NCBI RefSeq assembly: GCF_008831285.2
Contig: NC_045142.1
Location: 9,977,952-10,041,951 of the forward strand
Length of the DNA: 64,000 nt
Origin: Nymphaea colorata
Taxonomy: Eukaryota; Streptophyta; Magnoliopsida; Nymphaeales; Nymphaeaceae
Direction of reading: 5' to 3'
In this document: one piece after another, positions 13,801 to 44,369 of the stretch
Layout: each line of letters begins with the position of its first letter
Position numbering within the stretch: the first letter of the stretch is position 1
Translations under genes and position numbers: made by a program
Notes under the pieces: model-generated
Seen by the model: only the letters and a program-made list of their open reading frames with translations
Database searches by the model: none
What the model was told of the DNA's origin: nothing

Positions 13801-15887
13801 TTATGTTTCCTCTTCCACCATCTTCATGTCTCCGTTTCTTTGAAGGCCCATCTACTGTTCCAATATGGAGCAGATTTGAATATGATTACTATATTGGTGA
13901 TGTACAGAGCAAGTGCCCAGCTGACCTCAGCTTCTCTGAGCTGACATCCAGGAAAGAAAATTGCACAAATAGCAAGATTGTTGGAAAGGACCACAGAACT
14001 GTCTTCTTGATTCACTGAAAAAGGTGGTGGAACAGAAAATGAGAAAAGAGTGCTATATGAGGTTAGACATGAATATTTGAGGTGCACGCCAAACTGTTCA
14101 GATTTGAGTAACATGCTTGATGTTTGCCTTGTCTTGTTTTTCATTACAATTACAAATGTAATATTTCTTTCGGATAAAAGATATTTGGTTATTTTCCTTG
14201 TTGAGCAGTTGATGGAAGTCATTACTGACATATCAGTTATCGAACAGATACACCACCAAAAGCTTTCAACAGGGGAGTTCTATGCACTACTGAATTGCAA
14301 TACATTTGGATAAGAAGAGTATTGGTGGTATAAAGAAGCTATCCCCAGTAGGGGTCCATACTCCATAGCTGTTTCACATTGATATAGCAGCAGACACAAC
14401 GATCTAACCATTTTTATGAAGTATAAAGCTTAAAGTATGAATGCATAGAGGAGCGTGGAACGGCAGTTAAAATGGAGTATTTCACATGAAATAGGCTTCA
14501 TATTTATGGAGCATAAGATTAAGGGTACAATGGTGTCTACAGTTTCCAAACATCAGAAGCCACATTTATATGTGGTAAATTTGAATACTTCTTAAAAGCT
14601 CATCTTTCATTTTGGGATTAACGGAACGTTCTCACCAGTAGCTTAAGCGGAGCTCCATACAAGCTGGTGTGGGCAGTTGCCCACGCCAGCAACGAAATTT
14701 TTATTTATTTTTACATAGATTTCTTACAATTATTTACTTACTTATATATGTTGTGCCCCTTCAAAAATAAAATTTCTATAAGAGTGCCCCATAGCCAAAA
14801 AATTCTCCCTCCGCCACTTCACACCATTTCACATTTTCCCATTTCGCCAAACTGAAATTATTACTACGAGCAATTCTTACGTGGAATACTATATAGCAGC
14901 AATTTATATTTTCGTTTTCCCTCCACATACTCTAATTTCCAAGCTGGCTATCGTCTTGTTGACACAAGAAAACCTCATTGATAGTTCAGATCTCAACAAC
15001 ATAAGAAACTAAACAAACAGAACATGGATGAAAGGAAACGTACTGGAAACTTGGTCCTTGATAACATGAAGGTATACAAACAGCCTGTGCAGTCGGCACC
15101 TTCTCCTTCTTCCTGATTGACACAGCCTGAATACCCATTGCATCCGGATAGAGGCTACAGAGAAAATGCAACACTTCGTCGTTCCCAGGTTTTTCGATAT
15201 CCACGTGCAAGAACAATTGGCTTATATCATCCCCACCGGCTTCCTCCTGTGCATCTTCAGGGACTAAGTTGGCCAAACGCATAACAGAGATACGAATCTC
15301 TTCCTGCTCATATGTCCTCCTTAAAACAGGCCCATCATTATCCAATGCACCTTTCACTATAGTGTATGGAGTAGGGGGGTTAATTTTCTGCAATTCAAAA
15401 AACCAAAGAGCCAAGATCAAAATTCCATTTCTTCCTTCCAGAGACAGACATGGTTTGCAGATTCAGCAACACCAACTAAAGATATCGTCCTAAAGAGCAG
15501 TTGGGCAGTCGAAATTCCTGATTTTTGGAACTCAAATACTAGCTAGTCATCACTAAGTAAATTAAATGCACAGCAAAAACCATAAAGCTGAAAGGAATCA
15601 CCCCCCAACAATAATAGAAACATATCAACCCATCAATGAATTCAGCAAACAGTTAGATGTTTGTACTAATTATTATAAATGGTAGCAAAGCGACGAAAAA
15701 ATAGGAAAGAAAATGTAAAGAAAACCCCTTTCTTCTGGCTTACCGGAGGAGGACTCATCTTGGACACTTCGAAGTAGTGGTCCTTGAGGGATCGCAGAAC
15801 GAGAGAATCCACGGCGGAGGAAGAGGCGGCGGTGGATAGTCCCCTCCTTGCTAACGCCCACTGACAGGCTACGATCCTCTTCAACAT
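10842..15887 (-). CDS. mitochondrial glycoprotein (p32/MAM33) family protein, 3 exons
   Basis: Exons on the minus strand are 15887-15744, 15387-15044 and 11013-10842, giving 660 nt and 219 residues. Junctions follow GT..AG with continuous phase: exon 1 ends CCG|gtaag, exon 2 starts after ttgcag and ends CA|gtacgt, and exon 3 starts G after tttcag. The start is the first ATG after a CT-rich leader. Residues 1-22 are basic and hydroxylated (MLKRIVACQWALARRGLSTA), like a mitochondrial targeting peptide. The body matches plant p32/MAM33-type proteins: LRSLKDHYFEVSKM (31-44), NPPTPYTIVKG from about 51, an acidic EDAQEEAGGDD stretch, FLHVDIEKPG, the LHFLCSLYPDAMGIQAVS block, and the C-terminal RGVNESLFSFLQSWLYVKDH...WFKTVGTFIN. 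Members of this family form acidic trimeric matrix proteins linked to mitochondrial gene expression and respiration. Those roles are family knowledge, not read from this sequence. The length is normal and no frame damage is seen. Confidence 0.93.
13228..13568. mobile_element. hAT-like MITE with perfect 8-bp TSD, in p32 intron
   Basis: A 341-bp element begins CAGTGTTGTA and ends TACAGCATTG (reverse complement CAATGCTGTA). It is bounded by the perfect direct repeat GCTTAAAG at 13220-13227 and 13569-13576. The 5'-CA terminus, short imperfect terminal inverted repeat and 8-bp target duplication are hAT characters. The interior is rich in CGATACG/CGTATCG-type palindromic motifs on both strands, so the single strand could fold extensively. 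No transposase is encoded. Confidence 0.85.
14642..14819 (-). mobile_element. hAT-like MITE (GCCCACACC family), reverse orientation
   Basis: Ends read roughly CTTAAGCGGAG and CTCCCTCCGCCACTT, an imperfect inverted repeat. Near one end lies the short palindrome GTGGGCAGTTGCCCAC. The same palindrome and end sequences appear at 17595-17791 and 49495-49663, defining a family of about 170-200 bp. No convincing target-site duplication was found for this copy. Confidence 0.55.
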
Positions 15888-17394: not shown

Positions 17395-19667
17395 TTAGTT
17401 CTTCTTGGAGGCTGCCTTCTTGGGCGGGGTGGGCGTCTTTGGTGCAGGGTCGTGGCGAGCATTGGCCGATGGATCAGCATAGTCGTTGATGGTCACCACC
17501 CGTCGATCCACCTGTTCTTCCTCCATTGACCACCCTCCTGCAATGCACCTTTTGCAGTTATGTGCTCGACCCCGAGTATTGGGAGACTGAGTCCCACTCG
17601 CCAAGCCAAATTTTTTTCTTCAAGGGACACTAATTCACATATTTTTATACATGAAGACACACTTACATATATAACAAACAAAGTAAATATTAGAAGAACT
17701 GAATGTAAGAATGAAAGAAAATTGAAGGGCTGGTGTGTGGGCAACTGCCCACACCAGTCTATATGTTAATGTTACTGCTCCCGCCCGTCTGTTTAATTGA
17801 TTGATAGGTGGACAGAGCACCATAACTGCATTTTCTTTGAATATATGGTTTTGGATACCGATCAGTAGAATATTATTGGGTATTTAATATCAGGTACCAT
17901 TCAAACAAGGACACAGTCAAGTGGGGCCCGCATGAACCCTGGATCTACCTTAAAAACCTTTTTTTTTAAATAAAAAAAAATTACATGTAAATTTTTGAAA
18001 ATTGTATAAAATTTTTGAAAAATGATATTTCGATTGTGTAAAAATTTAGAAATTTTAATTTTGTTTCTCCGATGAAAAAATTTCAAATCCACCCCTACAT
18101 TTAAATAGAATAAAAGTGTTTGATGACCAGGAAGTCCATATGTTTGATGATCAGGAATCTTTATTCTAGATTCTTTTTAGTTTCGCATTTATTTGTTCGT
18201 GAAACTAAAAAGTCTGCCCATCTATAACAACCGTTGAGATTGTAACTGCTTATAACTTCAGGATGTTGATGTTAATTTCATTTTGGTTCCATCTCAAGAG
18301 AGTTTTTTTAGAAAACGAAAGAGTTGTCTCCAGATGAAAACCAGGATTTCACGAAACTGGGTTTTCTGTGTAGATAAACACGCAAAAAAGCATGATATTT
18401 GAAAGTCAAAATATCGTTTTGACCGTGAACCCAAACAGGGCCCTAATGTTTTAAAAAAACCCATATTTTTTAAAAAAAAAATTGCGAAGTCAAGGTATTA
18501 TCTTATCTGTTATGCTGATCAATCAACTGCCTTTGTGATTAGTGTCAACAGGCTGCCAGCTGCTTCTTCTTGCTTGATTGCCATATACAAATCTTTTTGC
18601 ATGAACGGGAGTTTCACAATCCACCATCCGAAAGAGGCTCGAAAGTTTCCCTATTATAGGTCTTCGACTGTACTTTTAGGACTTGGGTATCAAAATAGAT
18701 TGTGCCACTTATGTATAATCTAGGGATGTCAATATATTCGATTTGAATAAAATATATGACCCATCTAATCTAAAAAAATCGGATATAAAAAAAAGTTTAA
18801 TATCCGATTAAGAAATCGGATCAGATTCATATTTAATAAATGGCATCCGATCGAATTTGGATTCGGATATACATAAATTCGATTAGATTAGGATGTAGAT
18901 CCAGATCGGATTCATTTTTCGACAAGTATCTAATGCTGTTAAATTTTGAAAATTGGCAAAATCCAGTTCAAAATTTGGATTCGGATCCAGATATAAATAT
19001 AAAAATCAGATTTGGATCGGGTTCAGATTGTAAAATCGGATTTTGGATTCGGATTTGGATGTGACTTTTCTTTATTCGAATTCGAATCCAAATATGTGAA
19101 TATCTGAAAAAGCAGATATGATTAAAATATATCCGATCTGAATCCGATCGATTGACATCCCTCCCCATTCTAACCAACCATGCTATGTCCCTTGAGACAA
19201 CAATGCTTTAAACATATTTCAATTAGCAATTTTATGCAAATGTATGCTATTATACTACAAACTTATGCATGTGTTCAAAGAGTATAATGTGGTTTTTGTT
19301 ATCAAATTAGAGGCACACTTCGAGAAAGATCTTTTTGAGGATTTGATGCAGCAGCTTTTGACGTTCTCGATAACTAATTCGTGAAAAAAAGTTCATAAAT
19401 CATGTGGTTGAATCTTAATAAATGATCCCCAACAAGGCTTTGCGAGTTCATGAATTAATAAAGCTCTAGCGCAGCGATCTTAGCTTCAAGAAATGAGGAT
19501 ATATCTAGAGACCAACTACCCCGATGCCGTTTGCTCCTCTAATAAACTTAAAGAAAATAAGATTCAAGTAATGAAGTTTAAGGAGAACCTGAAGAGAAAG
19601 CTGGAAGAAGCATGGTCTGAAATAGGAGCAGAAGGACGAGTAGAGAGAGGAAATGCTTCTGTTCCAT
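17395..19667 (-). CDS. PSY-type tyrosine-sulfated peptide hormone precursor, 2 exons
   Basis: Exon 1 is 19667-19589 (79 nt) and exon 2 is 17537-17395 (143 nt), totalling 222 nt and 73 residues. Exon 1 ends TCTTCAG|gttctc and exon 2 starts after gcattgcag; phase 1 is continuous and completes a Gly codon. Residues 1-26 are a strong secretory signal (MEQKHFLSLLVLLLLFQTML then LPAFSS). The spacer is acidic and basic (EEEQVDRR), as in propeptides. Residues 45-57 read DYADPSANARHDP, identical at 10 of 13 positions to Arabidopsis PSY1 (DYGDPSANPKHDP). The Asp-Tyr pair is the tyrosylprotein sulfotransferase motif. The tail, residues 58-73, is APKTPTPPKKAASKKN, with prolines that could be hydroxylated. 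PSY1 has a precursor of similar size (about 75 residues). Known PSY peptides act outside the cell, promoting growth through leucine-rich-repeat receptor kinases. The mature ends here are inferred. Confidence 0.88.
17595..17791 (+). mobile_element. degenerate hAT-like MITE (GCCCACACC family)
   Basis: The left end CACTCGCCAAGCCAAATTT corresponds to CACTGGCGGAGCTAAATTT of the better-preserved copy at 49495. The palindrome GTGGGCAACTGCCCAC is present near 17739, and the right end is a degraded CTCCCGCCCGTCTG. Target-site duplication is not visible, consistent with age. Confidence 0.55.
18721..19163. repeat. GGGATGTCAA...TTGACATCCC inverted-end repeat
   Basis: The segment opens TAGGGATGTCAA and closes TTGACATCCCTC, an inverted repeat. 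The interior is made of degenerate GGATTCGGAT/ATCCGATC motifs in both orientations. Similar segments occur near 21985-22390, 39815-40130, 56370-56800 and 58337-58770, with a fragment at 23500-23720. They behave as a MITE-like family of about 320-445 bp. No convincing target duplication is visible here, so the superfamily is open. Confidence 0.6.
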
Positions 19668-19772: not shown

Positions 19773-19779
19773 ATTTATA
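19773..19779 (-). promoter_or_regulatory. candidate TATA box of the PSY gene
   Basis: On the minus strand the sequence CTCTATAAATGAGG contains TATAAAT about 106 bp upstream of the PSY start codon. This spacing would place transcription start near 19745 with a leader of about 75 bases. The motif is a good match; its use is inferred. Confidence 0.5.
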
Positions 19780-24117: not shown

Positions 24118-27100
24118 TCAAACATCTTTGAGAGTTGACAAAAATGTTCTAACAATATCAAGAAATTCTTCCGGTCGCTCTTCATGGGGCAAGTGACCAC
24201 ACTTCTTCATCACTTTCAAGTGTGAACCAGGCATGGCTAGAGATAGACGTTTAGCGTTCCATGCAGGAACAAGGCGGTCATGATCACCGGTAATAATCAA
24301 CACTGGTTTTCAATGAAAACAATGAATCAGTTTTTGAACTATCTTGAAGCATGAACTCATTCCTAAAAGAATAAGTGAACTAATTAAAAAAAAAAAAACT
24401 TTGAAAAATACTAAGAAAATCGACATGCATATTGTTACCTGGACATGCAATCTCAGAAAGCCTTCTCTTGCATGGTGCCATTTTCTTAGGCTTCGTACTG
24501 GTAAACAATGCTATGATATATTCCAAAACCGCCTTTTCCCAATCCTTGGCTCTTAATGGCTGCAAATAAAGAAATAATATCATCAAACTGTTGGTTAATC
24601 CAAAAGAAAATGTTCACTTATATTAGAAAATATTGTGATAGCGGTGTACCGGCACATTAATGTTAACAAATAAAAACAGTAAATCAATTAAATGTATACT
24701 ACTTCATATTATGTATTTTTAAAAATTAGTAACTAAATATAACACACCAAACTTCATCCTTTTCTTTTCGAGCTAATGTTATTAAGCATTAGCTCAGTAC
24801 ATTAACCACTGCTAGTCGAATTTAATGTCACTCATAACGTTGCACAAACAATTAGATATTAATCAAAGTTCTACATATATAATTACTCAAAGAATAATGA
24901 AATTAAGTAAAGGATCATATGTTTTAGGTAGATATACTCACTTTTAGATAACCATAAATATCATCCTCCGTGACTTTGCTTGCATCATACCAAGAACTCC
25001 TAATGGATGTTTCGCAAAATCTGTCAAATATGAACCTTAACTGCAACCACATTCAAGAAAAAGCCTTAGCAGTCAAACCCATCAAATATTTCATGCAAGA
25101 TAAAAAAGAAGGATCGATCCATTACAATTCTAAAGCATTGGGAAAAACTCATAGAAAGAGAAAGCATGTATTATTAAAAAAAAAATTGTTTAAAACATTA
25201 AAAACTGATCAGCCTAATAAAACATAAAAAAATATGTTTTCCTTTTTTAACGCCAAAAGCGAAAAGAACATGTTTTATTCACGTTTTTTACAATTTCTAG
25301 TCTCTTACCGTTACAAAATCTGGCCGTTTAAACCCCGAAAAAGATATTTGTGGCTACTTATAAAAAACTTTGAGCCGATCAGTGGCCTTCAATGGTCTGC
25401 TAAACTTTTAAACTCACCGTAAGAATGCCGAAGTAAGAACGCAGAATTTCTGAAAGGAGGTTCCTGCAGAAGCAGGAGAGCAAATACAGAATCCTTTTGA
25501 TCATCGAAGCTATGACTACTTGCGCTAGAAAACGCAGTGCACGTAGAAGTAAAAGAATGCCACGGAACATGTTCTCCCGATCGCTCCGGCCAATTTCTGC
25601 ATTTTCCGGCCTCCGATCTTCTCTTTCATGTAGATCTCTTTGATTGGAATTAGATGAGAACAGAGGTGCAATAAGCGCAGGACATACGAGGATCAGAGCT
25701 GCAACACGTTCAGGGGCTTCAAAGTATGCATCGACTGCTACAAGACTTCCAGCAGAATGCCTGCAAAAAACCAAAATCATACTTCTCAAACATCTGATGA
25801 TTGTGTTTGTAATTTATCTGAAGCAAAAATCGAATGAGTAATCATTAGTTACTCATAGAGTTGGCCTTAGTTATTGGTGGATAGATAATCATGGTTTAAG
25901 TCATTTGGATGTCAACTCTCTGCGCAAGGCAACGCATGCATATGATTTTGGAGCGCCAAACAAGTTGAATAATCAGATCACGAGCATTGAAGTCAGTACT
26001 CTGGTGGCAAAATGACGAAAATACCCCTAAGCTAAAAAAAGATACAAAATTAAAGAGATCCCCCTATAAGGGCAAAGTTGGAAAAGGTGGACGAATGGAA
26101 CAGTAAAAATTATTTTAATGAAAACATGAATATACTAAGCATAGCCGTTGATCATGTGAGAGACTTGATTACTAAATGGATCGGCCTGAGCTTCAACCTC
26201 AGTGTCCATGGAAAATGGATGCGAAGAAAGCGACTTTTGGGCAAGATACAAAGTCTTCCAATCTCAGAGTGGTTTCTTATGTAACAGTTTTGAGTGTAAT
26301 AGTCAAGTGGTGTGTTTCTTTTTTTCATATATATATATATATATTGGTGCATCATCCATGATTCTTTGAGAGACTCTTCATGCATGTATCACCAATGACA
26401 CCTTCGGTTTATGACATATTAAAATATAAAATATTAGAAGTTTCAAATATAGGTAAACATTGAACCGGGCACCTGACAAGTATAAAGCTGACAGTCGGGT
26501 TTAGCTCGATAACTAAGCGGGCTGAGCTTGGGTGCCAGTAAGGATTTTGGGTGAGCCCAAGCCCAAGCCCAAGTTTGTGGAGTCTCGGGCCAGCTCGATG
26601 CGAATTGATGTGTAGCGCCTTCAAAAGGGTAGCTAGATCATAGCCACAGAAAACATATATTATTAAAAAATATGTTTAAAATGTTAAAAATTGGTTAGCA
26701 AAATAAAATGAAAATAAAAATGTTCCTTTTAAGAAAAACATCCAAAACGAAAAAAACTGTCTACTCCATTATAGACAACTTTGTAGCCGTATAAAACCTG
26801 GCCGTTTAAAACCTGAATGCTACCTTTGCTACTAATCCGCTTTTGTGTTGGGCCAGGTCCGGCAAATGGTCCTTCGATTGGAAATGACAATTTTAAAGGA
26901 AAGATGATCTAAAAACTAAACTCACCCAACTAAAATTGCCTTGTCTGATCCCTTGAGCTTGTCCATGAAAGAAAGTGTAACAAGAGAAGAGAAGGCAGTC
27001 GAGTAAGGACTCAAATGCGTGGAAGCCGCCATTAAAGCAGAGCTCGGCTTAGGAGGGTAGTCCACCCTCGATGTCAACCCAAAAGCAGGTCTATCAAAAG

Positions 27101-28524
27101 CAAGAACACTGGACCCAACCAGATGGGCAAGTGGCTTCATCACTTTGCGCCACGAAAACACAGTTGCCCCGAAACCATGGAGAAGGATCATGGGCAGTCC
27201 TAGTCTGCAGCTTCTTGAAGAGGAACACTTAGATTCTTCCCATTGATCACCTTCTGCACTACTGATCTTATGGTGAATGCTGACTCCCATGAACTCGAAG
27301 AAACAGCTATCCGGATCCGCCAGCAGCAATGGGTCCAGCAGCTCATCCTGATCAATGCCGGCCACTGTTTTCTTCTTCTTCTTCTTCTTCTTCTGCTTGA
27401 TTTGCCTTCCGATGTCCAGCAACTGATTATCTGCAACCATGATGCGTAGCATAGTAATTACCTCTCCTTGAATATTCATGGAAAGTGTCTGAAAAAAATT
27501 TGATATTTCGTACCCCCGAAACATGATTTTAACAATCATGAGGAATTTTTGATGAAATTCACACAGTTCATTACAGGGGAGGAGATAGAAAATTCAGGTT
27601 AAGGGCGCTAGGTATAAAAATTTTAAAATTTTAAGAGGCATCAATATTGATGTAAATAAAAAAAATTGCTTAGAATATCAATATAAAAATGTGCACTATA
27701 AAGCTAAAATAAAGATGTGTTTGTTTCATCAGGACACCCCTACTAAGATTTTTCTTAATGCACACCTTTTTAATGCAGTCTGGAATATGAAATCCGAGGC
27801 TATTAGACATTACCAAGGGACCTATCTTTCTGCCTGAAGCAAGTTTTACCCTAGATAATTTATCTATATTTTGACTGTCCAATAGTTCCTTCAAAGGGTC
27901 GACAACTTAATTCACAATGGCAGAACGACTACCTACAGACAGACGTATAGATAAATTGCCTTCCACGTAAAAACCATTAGACTAACATCTGTAGTTGGCA
28001 GCTCAACGTAATCACCAGTGAGTAGTGACTAAGGGGAGTTTGATGAATGCGAAATATTTTTCTGGAGTATTTGCATGAAACAATTTATCTTCATCGTACA
28101 CCATAACAGCAAACACAGGAAAATAGTCATAACCAGAATTCTTTTTCTAGTCTAACAAAGAAAACGTATAGTTTTTTCGGGAAAAATTTTCACCCGCTGA
28201 TTTAGGACAATAAAAGTAACGAAAGTACGTAAGAACTTGTCAATCGCCAAGATATTAGGATGGACATGGAAAAGCTATCCCTTATTCCCTTCTTTGTTCT
28301 GCCATTACGGAAGCTGCGTGCGTGAACGTGAAAGCGGCCGACTAACCTGATATGATTTCGTCCCGTCCGTCGAGTCCCCGGTGAGCCGCGCCCCACTCCA
28401 GATGCACGGTTGGAGACTCTGCGTTTGGATGAGCACGTCGGAGAACGACGGTCCTCTCTTCGGAGATTCCGCCGTCGACCAAGCATGCCATTTCTCTGGT
28501 GCACCGAACGACGTGGGCAGCCAT
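24118..28524 (-). CDS. alpha/beta hydrolase fold protein, copy 1, 6 exons
   Basis: Exons are 28524-28347, 27430-26926, 25760-25418, 25040-24942, 24559-24439 and 24302-24118 (1431 nt, 476 residues). All junctions are GT..AG with consistent phase. Start MAAHVV is chosen because it is shared with the paralogue; the frame is also open upstream. Visible family features are the oxyanion-hole motif HGFGA (144-148), the block LAFDRPAFGLTSR, the nucleophile elbow GHSAGS (nucleophile Ser230; codon for Gly228 split by intron 2), the acid in TGDHDRLVPAW (Asp424) and His452 in CGHLPHEERPEEF. The triad is therefore complete. Eight lysines (73-80) are encoded by an AAG microsatellite. The C-terminal half resembles Arabidopsis alpha/beta-hydrolase proteins of the At1g80280/At1g52750 type. 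Substrate and location are unknown. Exon 1 (59 residues) has no recognised domain. It is the 3'-most of two tandem paralogues. Confidence 0.88.
25761..26925 (-). other. intron 2 of hydrolase copy 1
   Basis: A 1.17-kb intron between Val-Gly and His of the nucleophile elbow. It contains a short (AT) run near 26327-26344, a GGGCC-rich dispersed repeat fragment near 26455-26600, and a stretch with ggccgtttaaaacc motifs near 26640-26820 that recurs in other introns. Part of the intron (for example cctaagctaaaaaaagat...gggcaaagttggaaaaggt near 26030-26090) matches 38630-38700 in copy 2. Frames seen inside it are not coding. Confidence 0.7.
27431..28346 (-). other. intron 1 of hydrolase copy 1
   Basis: A 916-bp intron with a MITE-like stretch starting near 27576 (CAGGGGAGGAGATAGAAAATT). 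Its interior (ataaaaattttaaaatttt...atcaatat) matches the reverse complement of the 51361-51526 element. Sequence near 28100-28345 matches 45060-45332 at the 5' end of the paralogue's much longer intron 1. Confidence 0.7.
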
Positions 28525-38600: not shown

Positions 38601-41600
38601 TTGGTACTCTAATGTAAAATGACTAAACTACCCCCAAGCTTAAAAAAAGCTAAACAAAATATAGAGATCCCCTATGAGGACAAAGTTGGAAAAGGTGAAA
38701 AAAATGTTAAAACAACAGTAAAAGTTCTTTTCAAAAAATAATAAATACTCACTCAGCCTTCCTTTCCCCTTCTCCCAATTCGACCTTAAGTTTATAGTTT
38801 TTTTTAATGTGTAGCATGAACTTCAGATCCAAGTTATTGAGAATTTCTCAAAACATGTTTCTTTTTTTCTTTTTTTTATGCAGTCTCGGTTTTGTGATTA
38901 GAGGATATCAAACCCAAGAGAAGGAAAAATATTGAAAATGACAATTTTAAAGGAAAGATGATCTAAAAACTAAACTCACCCAACTAAAATTGCCTTGTCT
39001 GATCCCTTGAGCTTGTCCATGAAAGAAAGTGTAACAAGAGAAGAGAAGGCAGTCGAGTAAGGACTCAAATGAGTGGAGGCCGCCATTGAAGTAGAGCTCG
39101 GCTTAGGAGGGTAGTCCACCCTCGATGTCAACCCAAAGGCAGGTCTATCAAAAGCAAGAACAGTGGAACCAACCAAATTGGCGAGAGGCTTCGTCACTTT
39201 GCGCCATGAGAATACAGATGCCCCAAAACCATGGAGAAGAATCATGGGCAGTCCTAATACGCAACTTCTTGACGAGGAAAACTGAGATTCTTCCCTTTGA
39301 TCGCCTTCTGCAGAATCTGCACTGCTGATCTTATGGTGAACGCTGACTCCCATGAACTCGAAGAAACAGCTATCCGGCTCCGCCAGCAGCAATGGGTCCA
39401 GCAGCTCATCCTGATCAATGCCGGCCACTGTTTTCTTCTTCTTCTTCTTCTGCTTGATTGGCCTCTTGCTGTGCACCAAATCCTCTGTAAACATGATGCG
39501 TAGCATGTTAATGAATTACCTCTCACTCAATATTCGTGCAAGATGTCTGGAAAAAACTTGGTTCGTGTGATCAGGCGTCTCCCGAATACATGTTTTTAAC
39601 GATCAGAAGAAGAAATTCAAATAATTCATTATGTGTGTGTGTGTGTTTTTGTGTTGTTTGTGTAGCTTCCTTCGGAATGAATTCAAAGCAAGGGGCTGGT
39701 GGTGTGATACACTAAATAAAAATTTTTAGAAGTTTTTACAGGGGCTCATTTTTTTGAAAAATTTACATGGGCAAACTAAGGTTTTTAAGAAAAGGAAAGG
39801 TCTTGGCTTAGGAATGTCAATGGATTGGATTCGAACCGGATATATTTTTAATTATATCCGTTTTTTCGAATATTCACATCAATAATAAAAAGTCATATCC
39901 GAATCCGAATCTAAAATCATATTGTACAACATGAATATGATCCAAGTCCGACATTTATATTCATATTGAAAAATGTAATGGTTTGATATTTGTCTAATAA
40001 TGAATCTGATAGGATGCCATCTGTTAAATCTGAATCCGATCTGACTTTTTAATCGGATATTAACACATCCAATTTTTCCACATTGGTCCAGTTTGATATC
40101 CAATTCAAATCAAATTCGAATAGGAATAAAGAAAAGTCATTTATCAAAATGAGTAGCTAGCTTGGAGAAAATTTGCATTGCACTCACATATAAAAGAACT
40201 AAAATGGATCCATTAAAGTAAAAGGAGAGTCTTTGAATGGAGAAAAAGAGAATTATAAAAATATTCAAAGATTTAAATGTACATATTTTTTTTTAAATTT
40301 CTAAAAAATTTAAAAAATAAATTATCGGGCCCGAATAGACTTATCGGGCCCACAAGGGCCGGCCCGGGTTCCCTTTTCCCCTGACCCGGGCCGGATCGGG
40401 CCGAGGGGTACTCAGTGGCGACCAAGCCTTGGTTCCACTGTCAATGACATATGAAATACCCTATCTTTTTAAGGGGCATCTGATATACCTAGTATCAGAA
40501 TCAGGAAAATTAAGGGGCATCTGATATACCTATAATCAGAAAAGTTTAAGATTCAAAATGATTATTTTTGAATAAATTATAATTATTAAACAAACAAAGT
40601 ATTTTGTTTTCAGAATTAAGAAACTAAAACTTGAAATTTTGATTTCATTCAAGTTTGAGGAGGAATTATGATTGTCAAATTTTCATTTCATCAAAATTTC
40701 AAACTACAAAACACCTATGAATAACGAGATCTTTTGAAGACAATAAATGAAAAAAAAAAACCTACTTTTTCAAAAATACCTGAACCACCCTTTTGAACTG
40801 TTGGGGTGAAAGATGGGGCACCCTGTGCTCGTCCCCTACATCATGACCAAGTAAAAATACTAAAACAAAGTTGACCATAACAATGTGGTGCACACAAGAT
40901 ATGTAATGACCAAAATACCCCTTATAAAGTGAAAACGAAAGGTTTTGAAAAATATAAACAATACATGGAAAAAAGTAAAAAGACTGAATAGTACACTTTA
41001 TTTTCAAAAAATGTTTAAAACACACAAACCCTGGAGTGTAATAAAATGGTAATCCATGCACACAAGATATGTAATGACCAAAATACCTCTTGTAAGGTGA
41101 AAATGAAAGGTTTTGAAAAATACAAACAATACATGGAAAAAAGTAAAAAGACTGAATAGTACACTTTATTTTCAAAAATTGTTTAAAACACACAAACCCT
41201 GGATTGTAATAAACTGGTAATCCATGCACATAAGATATGTAATGACCAAAATACCCCTTGTAAAGTGAAAATGAAAGGTTTTGAAAAATACAAACAATAC
41301 ATGGAAAAAAGTAAAAAGACTGAATAGTACACTTTATTTTCAAAAAATGTTTAAAACACAGAAACCCTGGAGTGTAATAAAATGGTAATCCATGCACACA
41401 AGATATGTAATGACCAAAATACCTCTTATAAAGTAAAAACGAAAGGTTTTGAAAAATACAAACAATACATGGAAAAAAGTAAAAAGACTGAATAGTACAC
41501 TTTATTTTCAAAAAATGTTTAAAACACACAAACCCTGGAGTGTAATAAAATGGTAATCCATGCACACAAGATATGTAATGACCAAAATACCCCTTGTAAG

Positions 41601-44369
41601 GTGAAAATGAAAGGTTTTGAAAAATACAAACAATACATGGAAAAAAGTAAAAAGACTGAATAATACACTTCATTTTCAAAAATTGTTTAAAACACACAAA
41701 CCCTGGATTGTAATAAACTGGTAATCCATGCACACAAGATATGTAATGACCAAAATACCCCTTGTAAAGTGAAAATGAAAGGTTTTGAAAAATACAAACA
41801 ATACATGGAAAAAAGTAAAAAGACTGAATAGTACACTTTCTTTTCAAAAATTGTTTAAAACACACAAACCCTGGATTGTAATAAACTGGTAATACATGCA
41901 CACAAGATATGTAATGACCAAAATACCCCTTATAAAGTAAAAACGAAAGGTTTTGAAAAATACAAACAATACATGGAAAAAAGTAAAAAGACTGAATAGT
42001 ACACTTTATTTTCAAAAAATGTTTAAAACACACAAACCCTGGAGTGTAATAAAATGGTAATCCATGCACACAAGATATGTAATGACCAAAATACCCCTTG
42101 TAAGGTGAAAATGAAAGGTTTTGAAAAATACAAACAATACATGGAAAAAAGTAAAAAGACTGAATAATACACTTCATTTTCAAAAATTGTTTAAAACACA
42201 CAAACCCTGGATTGTAATAAACTGGTAATCCATGCACACAAGATATGTAATGACCAAAATACCCCTTGTAAAGTGAAAATGAAAGGTTTTGAAAAATACA
42301 AACAATACATGGAAAAAAGTAAAAAGACTGAATAGTACACTTTCTTTTCAAAAATTGTTTAAAACACACAAACCCTGGATTGTAATAAACTGGTAATACA
42401 TGCACACAAGATATGTAATGACCAAAATACCCCTAATAAAGTGAAAACGAAAGGTTTTGAAAAATACAAACAATACATGGAAAAAAAGTAAAAAGACTGA
42501 ATAGTACACTTTATTTTCAAAAAATGTTTAAAACACAGAAACCCTGGAGTGTAATAAAATGGTAATCCATGCACACAAGATATGTAATGACCAAAATACC
42601 CCTTATAAAGTGAAAATGAAAGGTTTTGAAAAATACAAACAATACATGAAAAAAAGTAAAAAGACTGAGTAGTACACTTTATTTTCAAAAAATGTTTAAA
42701 ACGCACAAACCCTGGAGTGTAATAAAATGGTAATCCATGCACACAAGATATGTAATGACTAAAATACCCCTTGTAAAGTGAAAATGAAAGGTTTTGAAAA
42801 ATACAAACAAAACATGGAAAAAAGTAAAAAAACTGAATAGTACACTTTATTTTCAAAAAATGTTTAAAACACACAAACCCTAGAGTGTAATAAACTGGTA
42901 ATCCATGCACACAAGATATGTAATGACCAAAATACCCCTTATAAAGTGAAAATGAAAGGTTTTGAAAAATACAAACAATACATGGAAAAAAGTAAAAAGA
43001 CTGAATAGTACACTTTATTTTCAAAAAATGTTTAAAACGCACAAACCCTGGAGTGTAATGAAATGGTAATCCATGCACACAAGATATGTAATGACTAAAA
43101 TACCCCTTGTTAGGTGAAAATGAAAGGTTTTAAAAAATACAAACAATACATAGAAAAAAGTAAAAAGACTGAATAGTACACTTTATTTTCAAAAAATGTT
43201 TAAAACACAGAAACCCTGGAGTGTAATAAACTGGTAATCCATGCACACAAGATATGTAATGACCAAAATACCCCTTATAAAGTGAAAATGAAAGGTTTTG
43301 AAAAATACAAACAATACATGGAAAAAAGTAAAAAGACTGAATGGTACACTTTATTTTCAAAAAATGTTTAAAACGCACAAACCCTGGAGTGTAATAAAAT
43401 GGTAATCCATGCACACAAGATATGTAATGACTAAAATACCCCTTGTTAGGTGAAAATGAAAGGTTTTAAAAAATACAAACAATACATGGAAAAAAGTAAA
43501 AAGACTGAATAGTACACTTTATTTTCAAAAAATGTTTAAAACACAGAAACCCTGGAGTGTAATAAAATGGTAATCCATGCACACAAGATATGTAATGACC
43601 AAAATACCCCTTATAAAGTGAAAACGAAAGGTTTTGAAAAATACAAACAATACATGGAAAAAAGTAAAAAGACTGTATTTTCAAAAAATGTTTAAAACAC
43701 ACAAACCCTGGAGTATAATAAAATGGTAATCCATGCACACAAGATATGTAATGACCAAAATACCCCTTGTAAGGTGAAAATAAAAGGTTTTGAAAAATAC
43801 AAACAATACATGGAAAAAAGTAAAAAGACTGAATAGTACACTTTATTTTCAAAAATTGTTTAAAACACACAAACCCTGGATTGTAATAAACTGGTAATCC
43901 ATGCACACAAGATATGTAATGACCAAAATACCCCTTGTAAAGTGAAAATGAAAGGTTTTGAAAAATACAAACAATACATGGAAAAAAGTAAAAGAATGAA
44001 TAGTACACTTTATTTTCAAAAAATGTTTAAAACACATAAACCCTGGAGTGTATATTTGTTGTGTGCACTCAATCTCAATCTAGATGGCCCAGGCCATTGG
44101 GCCGTAACCGGTGTTAAAAGCCACCTCGTTTTTTCCCTGTCTTATGGCCGAGCTTCCCAACACCTTCTGGGACACCCAACACCTACCTCACTCCCCTAAT
44201 AAATGCATGTTTTTGCTTGGATCTTTTGTTGCACTTTGTTGTTGAAAATTTGAAGATATAAGGCTTAAAATAAAATGGTAAATAAATTATTCTTGAAAAG
44301 CGTTTGCACAGAGTGTTTGATGAATGCAAAAATAATACATTTGTTTAAAAGGTATATTCCTAGGTGGCC

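Follow-up and report, generated by a model that had tools for sequence, protein, structure and literature searches.

A small Nymphaea colorata gene very probably encoding a sulfated, secreted PSY-family growth peptide

Known PSY peptides and the core encoded in the window

PSY peptides are defined by the motif DYXXXX[AP]NXXHXP, of which D, Y, N, H, and P are all kept in 31 of the 32 sequences of a published alignment (PMC7913133). The identical motif is used in a study of wheat, which places it toward the C-terminus of precursors of 60–200 amino acids and gives 71–175 amino acids for the wheat PSY precursors (PMC11641228). The precursors of Arabidopsis PSY1 to PSY3 are listed with 71–75 amino acids (PMC11534595). 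PSY precursors are trimmed by subtilases, an acidic residue next to the tyrosine favours sulfation, and PSY1 carries two hydroxylated prolines, one of them arabinosylated; SBT6.1 sites (RXLX or RXXL) are reported there for PSY1–5 (PMC7913133). PSY peptides repress the growth-braking activity of PSYR receptor kinases (PMC10519359). Regarding gene structure, most wheat PSYs have three introns and some have two exons (PMC11641228), and the tobacco PSY genes have two or three introns (PMC12153210). Our literature queries for any of four core strings returned the PSY1 sequence only, and the match found for PSY gene structure concerned receptor kinases only. Among papers from 2021 on, we found none joining PSY/PSYR phylogeny, angiosperms, and Amborella. 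A review table contains Nymphaea colorata in the row immediately above IDA/IDL (PMC11756074).

We analyzed a stretch of 64,000 nucleotides from N. colorata (contig C5, 9,977,952–10,041,951), referred to as the window, the positions of which are used below. An initial annotation had proposed a PSY-type gene on the minus strand, and the encoded core DYADPSANARHDP (17446..17484, minus strand) bears this out: it satisfies the published motif and is the single match to DY....[AP]N..H.P in the six frames of the window (17484-17446). The expected number of chance matches per window is 0.005 according to 200 first-order random sequences and 0.0006 according to an analytical estimate. For the genome as a whole (408 Mb), chance alone should produce around four matches to the six-residue motif, and a looser PSY pattern matched three times against once for its backward control, with one of the three (L003) looking like chance. 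Both figures would suit an unrelated reading frame that resembles the PSY core by chance; the match in the window is, however, far tighter than the motif demands, with 11 of 13 positions shared with Arabidopsis PSY2, and a signal-peptide-like exon lies nearby in the right phase. We regard such a coincidence as highly improbable.

The residue immediately before the core tyrosine is acidic. Upstream of the core the precursor reads VDRRVVTIN by eye, with RRVV where RXLX or RXXL would be expected, and no SBT6.1 site of either form was seen there. This counts against a functional PSY gene; the site is listed for PSY1–5 only and is thus not a defining feature of the family. In Pfam, the complete predicted product had no meaningful match (a single row with E 0.16 and 11.4 bits, the cut-off being 30), and a PDB sequence search gave one row with E 0.86, which we took as chance. 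Given so short a precursor, neither result is surprising.

The two-exon model and the predicted intron

The coding part of exon 2, stop codon included (17395..17537, minus strand, 143 nt), encodes GGWSMEEEQVDRRVVTIN with the PSY core and a Pro/Lys-rich tail; its translation from 17537 to 17395, GGWSMEEEQVDRRVVTINDYADPSANARHDPAPKTPTPPKKAASKKN, begins directly after ATTGCAG. The coding part of exon 1 (19589..19667, minus strand, 79 nt) comprises the signal-peptide-like MEQKHFLSLLVLLLLFQTMLLPAFSS and the first base of the next codon. Between them lies a predicted phase-1 intron of 2,051 nt (17538..19588, minus strand) with GT-AG ends, the donor being CAG|GTTCTC and the acceptor ATTGCAG|GAG. As the initial annotation had stated, 19667-19589 and 17537-17395 join in phase: in-silico splicing of the minus strand yielded a precursor of 73 amino acids, MEQKHFLSLLVLLLLFQTMLLPAFSSGGWSMEEEQVDRRVVTINDYADPSANARHDPAPKTPTPPKKAASKKN, in which the core occupies residues 45–57. 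This product lies within the 60–200 amino acids of the wheat study and has its motif in the C-terminal region. Left unspliced, exon 1 reaches a stop after 29 amino acids. The TATAAAT reported upstream was found as a TATA-like box at 19773..19779 (minus strand), beginning at 19779, 112 nt 5' of the ATG. Two AATAAA polyadenylation-like signals (17213-17208 and 17167-17162, minus strand) are located 182 and 228 nt beyond the stop codon. All three elements are consensus matches only.

The claim of a signal-peptide exon agrees with our scoring of the 73-residue product, which predicts the N-terminal secretion signal expected of a PSY, i.e., a hydrophobic stretch and a best cleavage score of 8.26 after residue 25 (AFS). 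Cleavage after residue 20 (7.65) or residue 22 (7.03) ranked next. These values come from a von Heijne-type matrix, not from SignalP, and depend on the predicted splice. Scanning both strands of the 64 kb for an ATG, a hydrophobic core, and an AG|GT donor in phase 1 returned three places, namely exon 1 and two others more than 36 kb distant.

The splice sites themselves are mediocre. Ranked with a rough matrix, 5.9% of all GTs in the window score at least as high as the donor, and 13.3% of all AGs score at least as high as the acceptor. The bases after the donor GT depart from the usual consensus and the acceptor is without a clear pyrimidine tract, both of which count against the two-exon gene. 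From codon 11 on, the open frame of exon 1 contains two GTs, and the chosen donor is the only one in phase 1 as well as the higher-scoring one. Of four phase-1 acceptors located in or after the open stretch, the best by a clear margin was the proposed one.

These weak sites leave some room for a genuine PSY gene whose transcript differs from the model and contains an extra small exon in the 2-kb gap or another first exon, so that the precursor would not be exactly 73 amino acids long. Such a transcript would also be in line with the three exons modelled at a second locus (L001, described below), the middle one being 59 nt, and with the two or three introns of tobacco and most wheat PSY genes, compared to which the single intron modelled here is fewer and speaks against our preferred structure. 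The direct join, however, keeps the frame and produces a complete precursor whose length is typical, and the three other phase-1 acceptors examined (17564, 17534, and 17516) are clearly worse. We consider a different transcript unlikely and retain the 19589/17537 join as a predicted splice, and the two-exon model built on it as part of the best explanation.

The intron was also said to bear a transposon, and the gap between the exons indeed contains a MITE-like repeat element of about 442 bp (18721..19162) with terminal inverted repeats AGGGATGTCAAT, delimited by its inverted arms (18722-18757 and 19127-19162) and by its genomic copies. In a genome-wide DNA search with 18715-19175, 40 of 3,563 first-look candidates were scored, namely the window itself and 39 other places with 79–83% identity. 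The ends of these 39 scored copies are largely shared, with window position 19162 (query base 14) as the start of 26 and window position 18721 or 18720 (query base 455 or 456) as the end of 32. The intron element is a high-copy, MITE-like element, around which no clear target-site duplication was visible by eye. Across the whole window, its end motif GGGATGTCAAT is present in five copies on the minus strand and one on the plus strand; these counts include the element's own two ends, and at most four further copies are therefore present elsewhere in the window.

Mobile elements are common within plant introns, which speaks against reading the locus as the decayed relic of an old PSY gene that has lost its expression, e.g., via the intron element. 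The mediocre donor would fit such decay, but both frames are open, all five near-universal family residues are kept in the core, and the locus has TATA- and poly(A)-like signals. We judge a relic to be improbable. In a functional gene, the element would be a passenger; nothing connects it to gene function.

Other features of the window include a minus-strand frame at 14986-15462 that matches the Pfam family MAM33 (mitochondrial glycoprotein; E 2.2e-07). It shares the strand of the PSY gene and lies downstream of it. Two alpha/beta hydrolase frames (26922-27593 and 38976-39515, both minus strand) match the same profile region about 12 kb apart and are perhaps duplicates. A tandem array at 40889-44052 consists of 18.9 copies of a 168-bp unit (94% match), with long minus-strand open frames running through the repeat.

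Same-genome searches and a second, PSY-like locus

We searched the genome of N. colorata (407.8 Mb in 783 contigs) for relatives. With the full 73 amino acids as query, both scored candidates were the gene's own two exons, and a 25-amino-acid query gave a single match, the gene itself. Arabidopsis PSY5 as query returned nothing, an empty answer that carries no weight. The looser pattern search mentioned above had the window gene as one of its three matches. L003 was attributed to chance, since it is without H-x-P.

The PSY-like candidate L001 (contig C2, 524-1578) encodes DYSDPGANVNPRNG, with a signal-peptide-like first exon and a proline-rich end. It encodes GRRELIATVEDYSDPGANVNPRNGAFMSPPPPPSH, and its modelled last exon contains DYSDPGAN; upstream, MMGRSSFRFSLLLLSLLALSAIQ terminates in phase 1 at AAG|GTCAGC. 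Three modelled exons of 70, 59, and 165 nt, the middle one chosen by eye, give one complete frame. L001 shares with the window gene the signal-peptide-like first exon ending in phase 1, an upstream RR, and DY-x-DP-x-AN, but differs in the absence of H-x-P, in its three modelled exons, and in its proline-rich end. Because H-x-P is absent, it is not a PSY by motif. L001 may be a relative; it possibly represents a separate sulfated-peptide family. It is conceivable, though unlikely, that N. colorata has only this gene left of the PSY1/PSY2-like type, accompanied by an L001-type relative with DY-x-DP-x-AN but without H-x-P, perhaps of a separate sulfated-peptide family; the searches behind this reading found this gene alone but are of limited reach. 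If true, this would provide a near single-gene system for testing PSY function without redundancy. L001, with its DYSDPGAN and its similar start, could matter more if proven to be a distinct peptide family.

Proposed function and comparison with Arabidopsis PSYs

In our assessment, the locus is most likely a functional flowering-plant gene for a PSY peptide hormone, in which two exons are spliced to give a secreted sulfated peptide acting via PSYR-type receptors, and in which the intron element is a passenger. The frames, the phase, the motif, and the signal-peptide-like start were read from the DNA itself. We favour this explanation because the core has the family motif, unique in the window, and shares 11 of 13 positions with Arabidopsis PSY2 and 10 of 13 with PSY1; because an acidic residue precedes the tyrosine, favouring sulfation; and because exon 1, one of three such places in the window, is signal-peptide-like, in compatible phase, and stops after 29 amino acids if unspliced. 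It is further favoured by the length of 73 amino acids, which falls within the 71–75 of Arabidopsis PSY1–3 and the 71–175 of wheat PSYs, by the model of L001 with a phase-1 signal-peptide exon and a later DYSDPGAN exon, and by the published PSY–PSYR mechanism (PMC10519359).

For the mode of action, we rely on analogy with the family. The first ~25 residues would target the precursor to the secretory pathway and then be cleaved off, and the tyrosine of DY would be sulfated by the Golgi tyrosylprotein sulfotransferase. Trimming of the precursor by subtilases would take place around DY and behind the core. Once mature, the peptide may then act extracellularly on PSYR-type leucine-rich-repeat receptor kinases, its binding repressing their growth-braking, stress-promoting signal. 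We consider it very probable that this small gene specifies a growth peptide of the PSY family that is sulfated and secreted.

We compared the core to the nine Arabidopsis PSY cores listed in Table 1 of PMC11534595. Identity over the 13 positions was highest for PSY2 (11), followed by PSY1 and PSY3 (10 each), PSY4 (9), PSY5 to PSY8 (7 each), and PSY9 (6); the agreement with PSY1 given in the initial annotation was correct on recount. PSY1 itself shares at most 10 of 13 positions with the other eight Arabidopsis PSYs. The annotation had further suggested that Ala at position 3, Ala-Arg at positions 9 and 10, and a lysine-rich tail may define a divergent branch. In that table, PSY4 has Ala at position 9, and PSY2, PSY3, PSY6, and PSY8 have Arg at position 10. 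Only Ala at position 3 is missing from all nine cores, although this site is variable and holds G, D, S, or P. The tail of PSY5 is listed as RRRPGGKG (PMC11534595), so a basic tail is not unusual either. With 11 of 13 positions shared with PSY2 in addition, a divergent branch is unsupported, and the core is, by its residues, a conservative one of the PSY1/PSY2 type.

The closest described system is Arabidopsis PSY2 (At3g47295), DYDDPSANTRHDPSVPT, with a precursor of 71 amino acids versus 73 here. At position 3, the Nymphaea core has A where PSY2 has D, and at position 9 it has A where PSY2 has T; the core is followed by the tail APKTPTPPKKAASKKN, whereas PSY2 has SVPT at its listed end. Arabidopsis PSY1 (At5g58650), DYGDPSANPKHDPGVPPS, with a precursor of 75 amino acids, shares ten core positions and the acidic-tyrosine context; here, the gene differs by A3, A9, and R10 and is without the GVPPS end. 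Overall, the gene looks like an ordinary member of the known PSY family. It adds a plausible PSY gene for an early-branching angiosperm, with a PSY1/PSY2-type core that is nearly unchanged, and is a confirmation rather than a surprise, since PSYs have already been reported throughout the higher plants, and the published alignment includes Amborella and a moss (PMC7913133).
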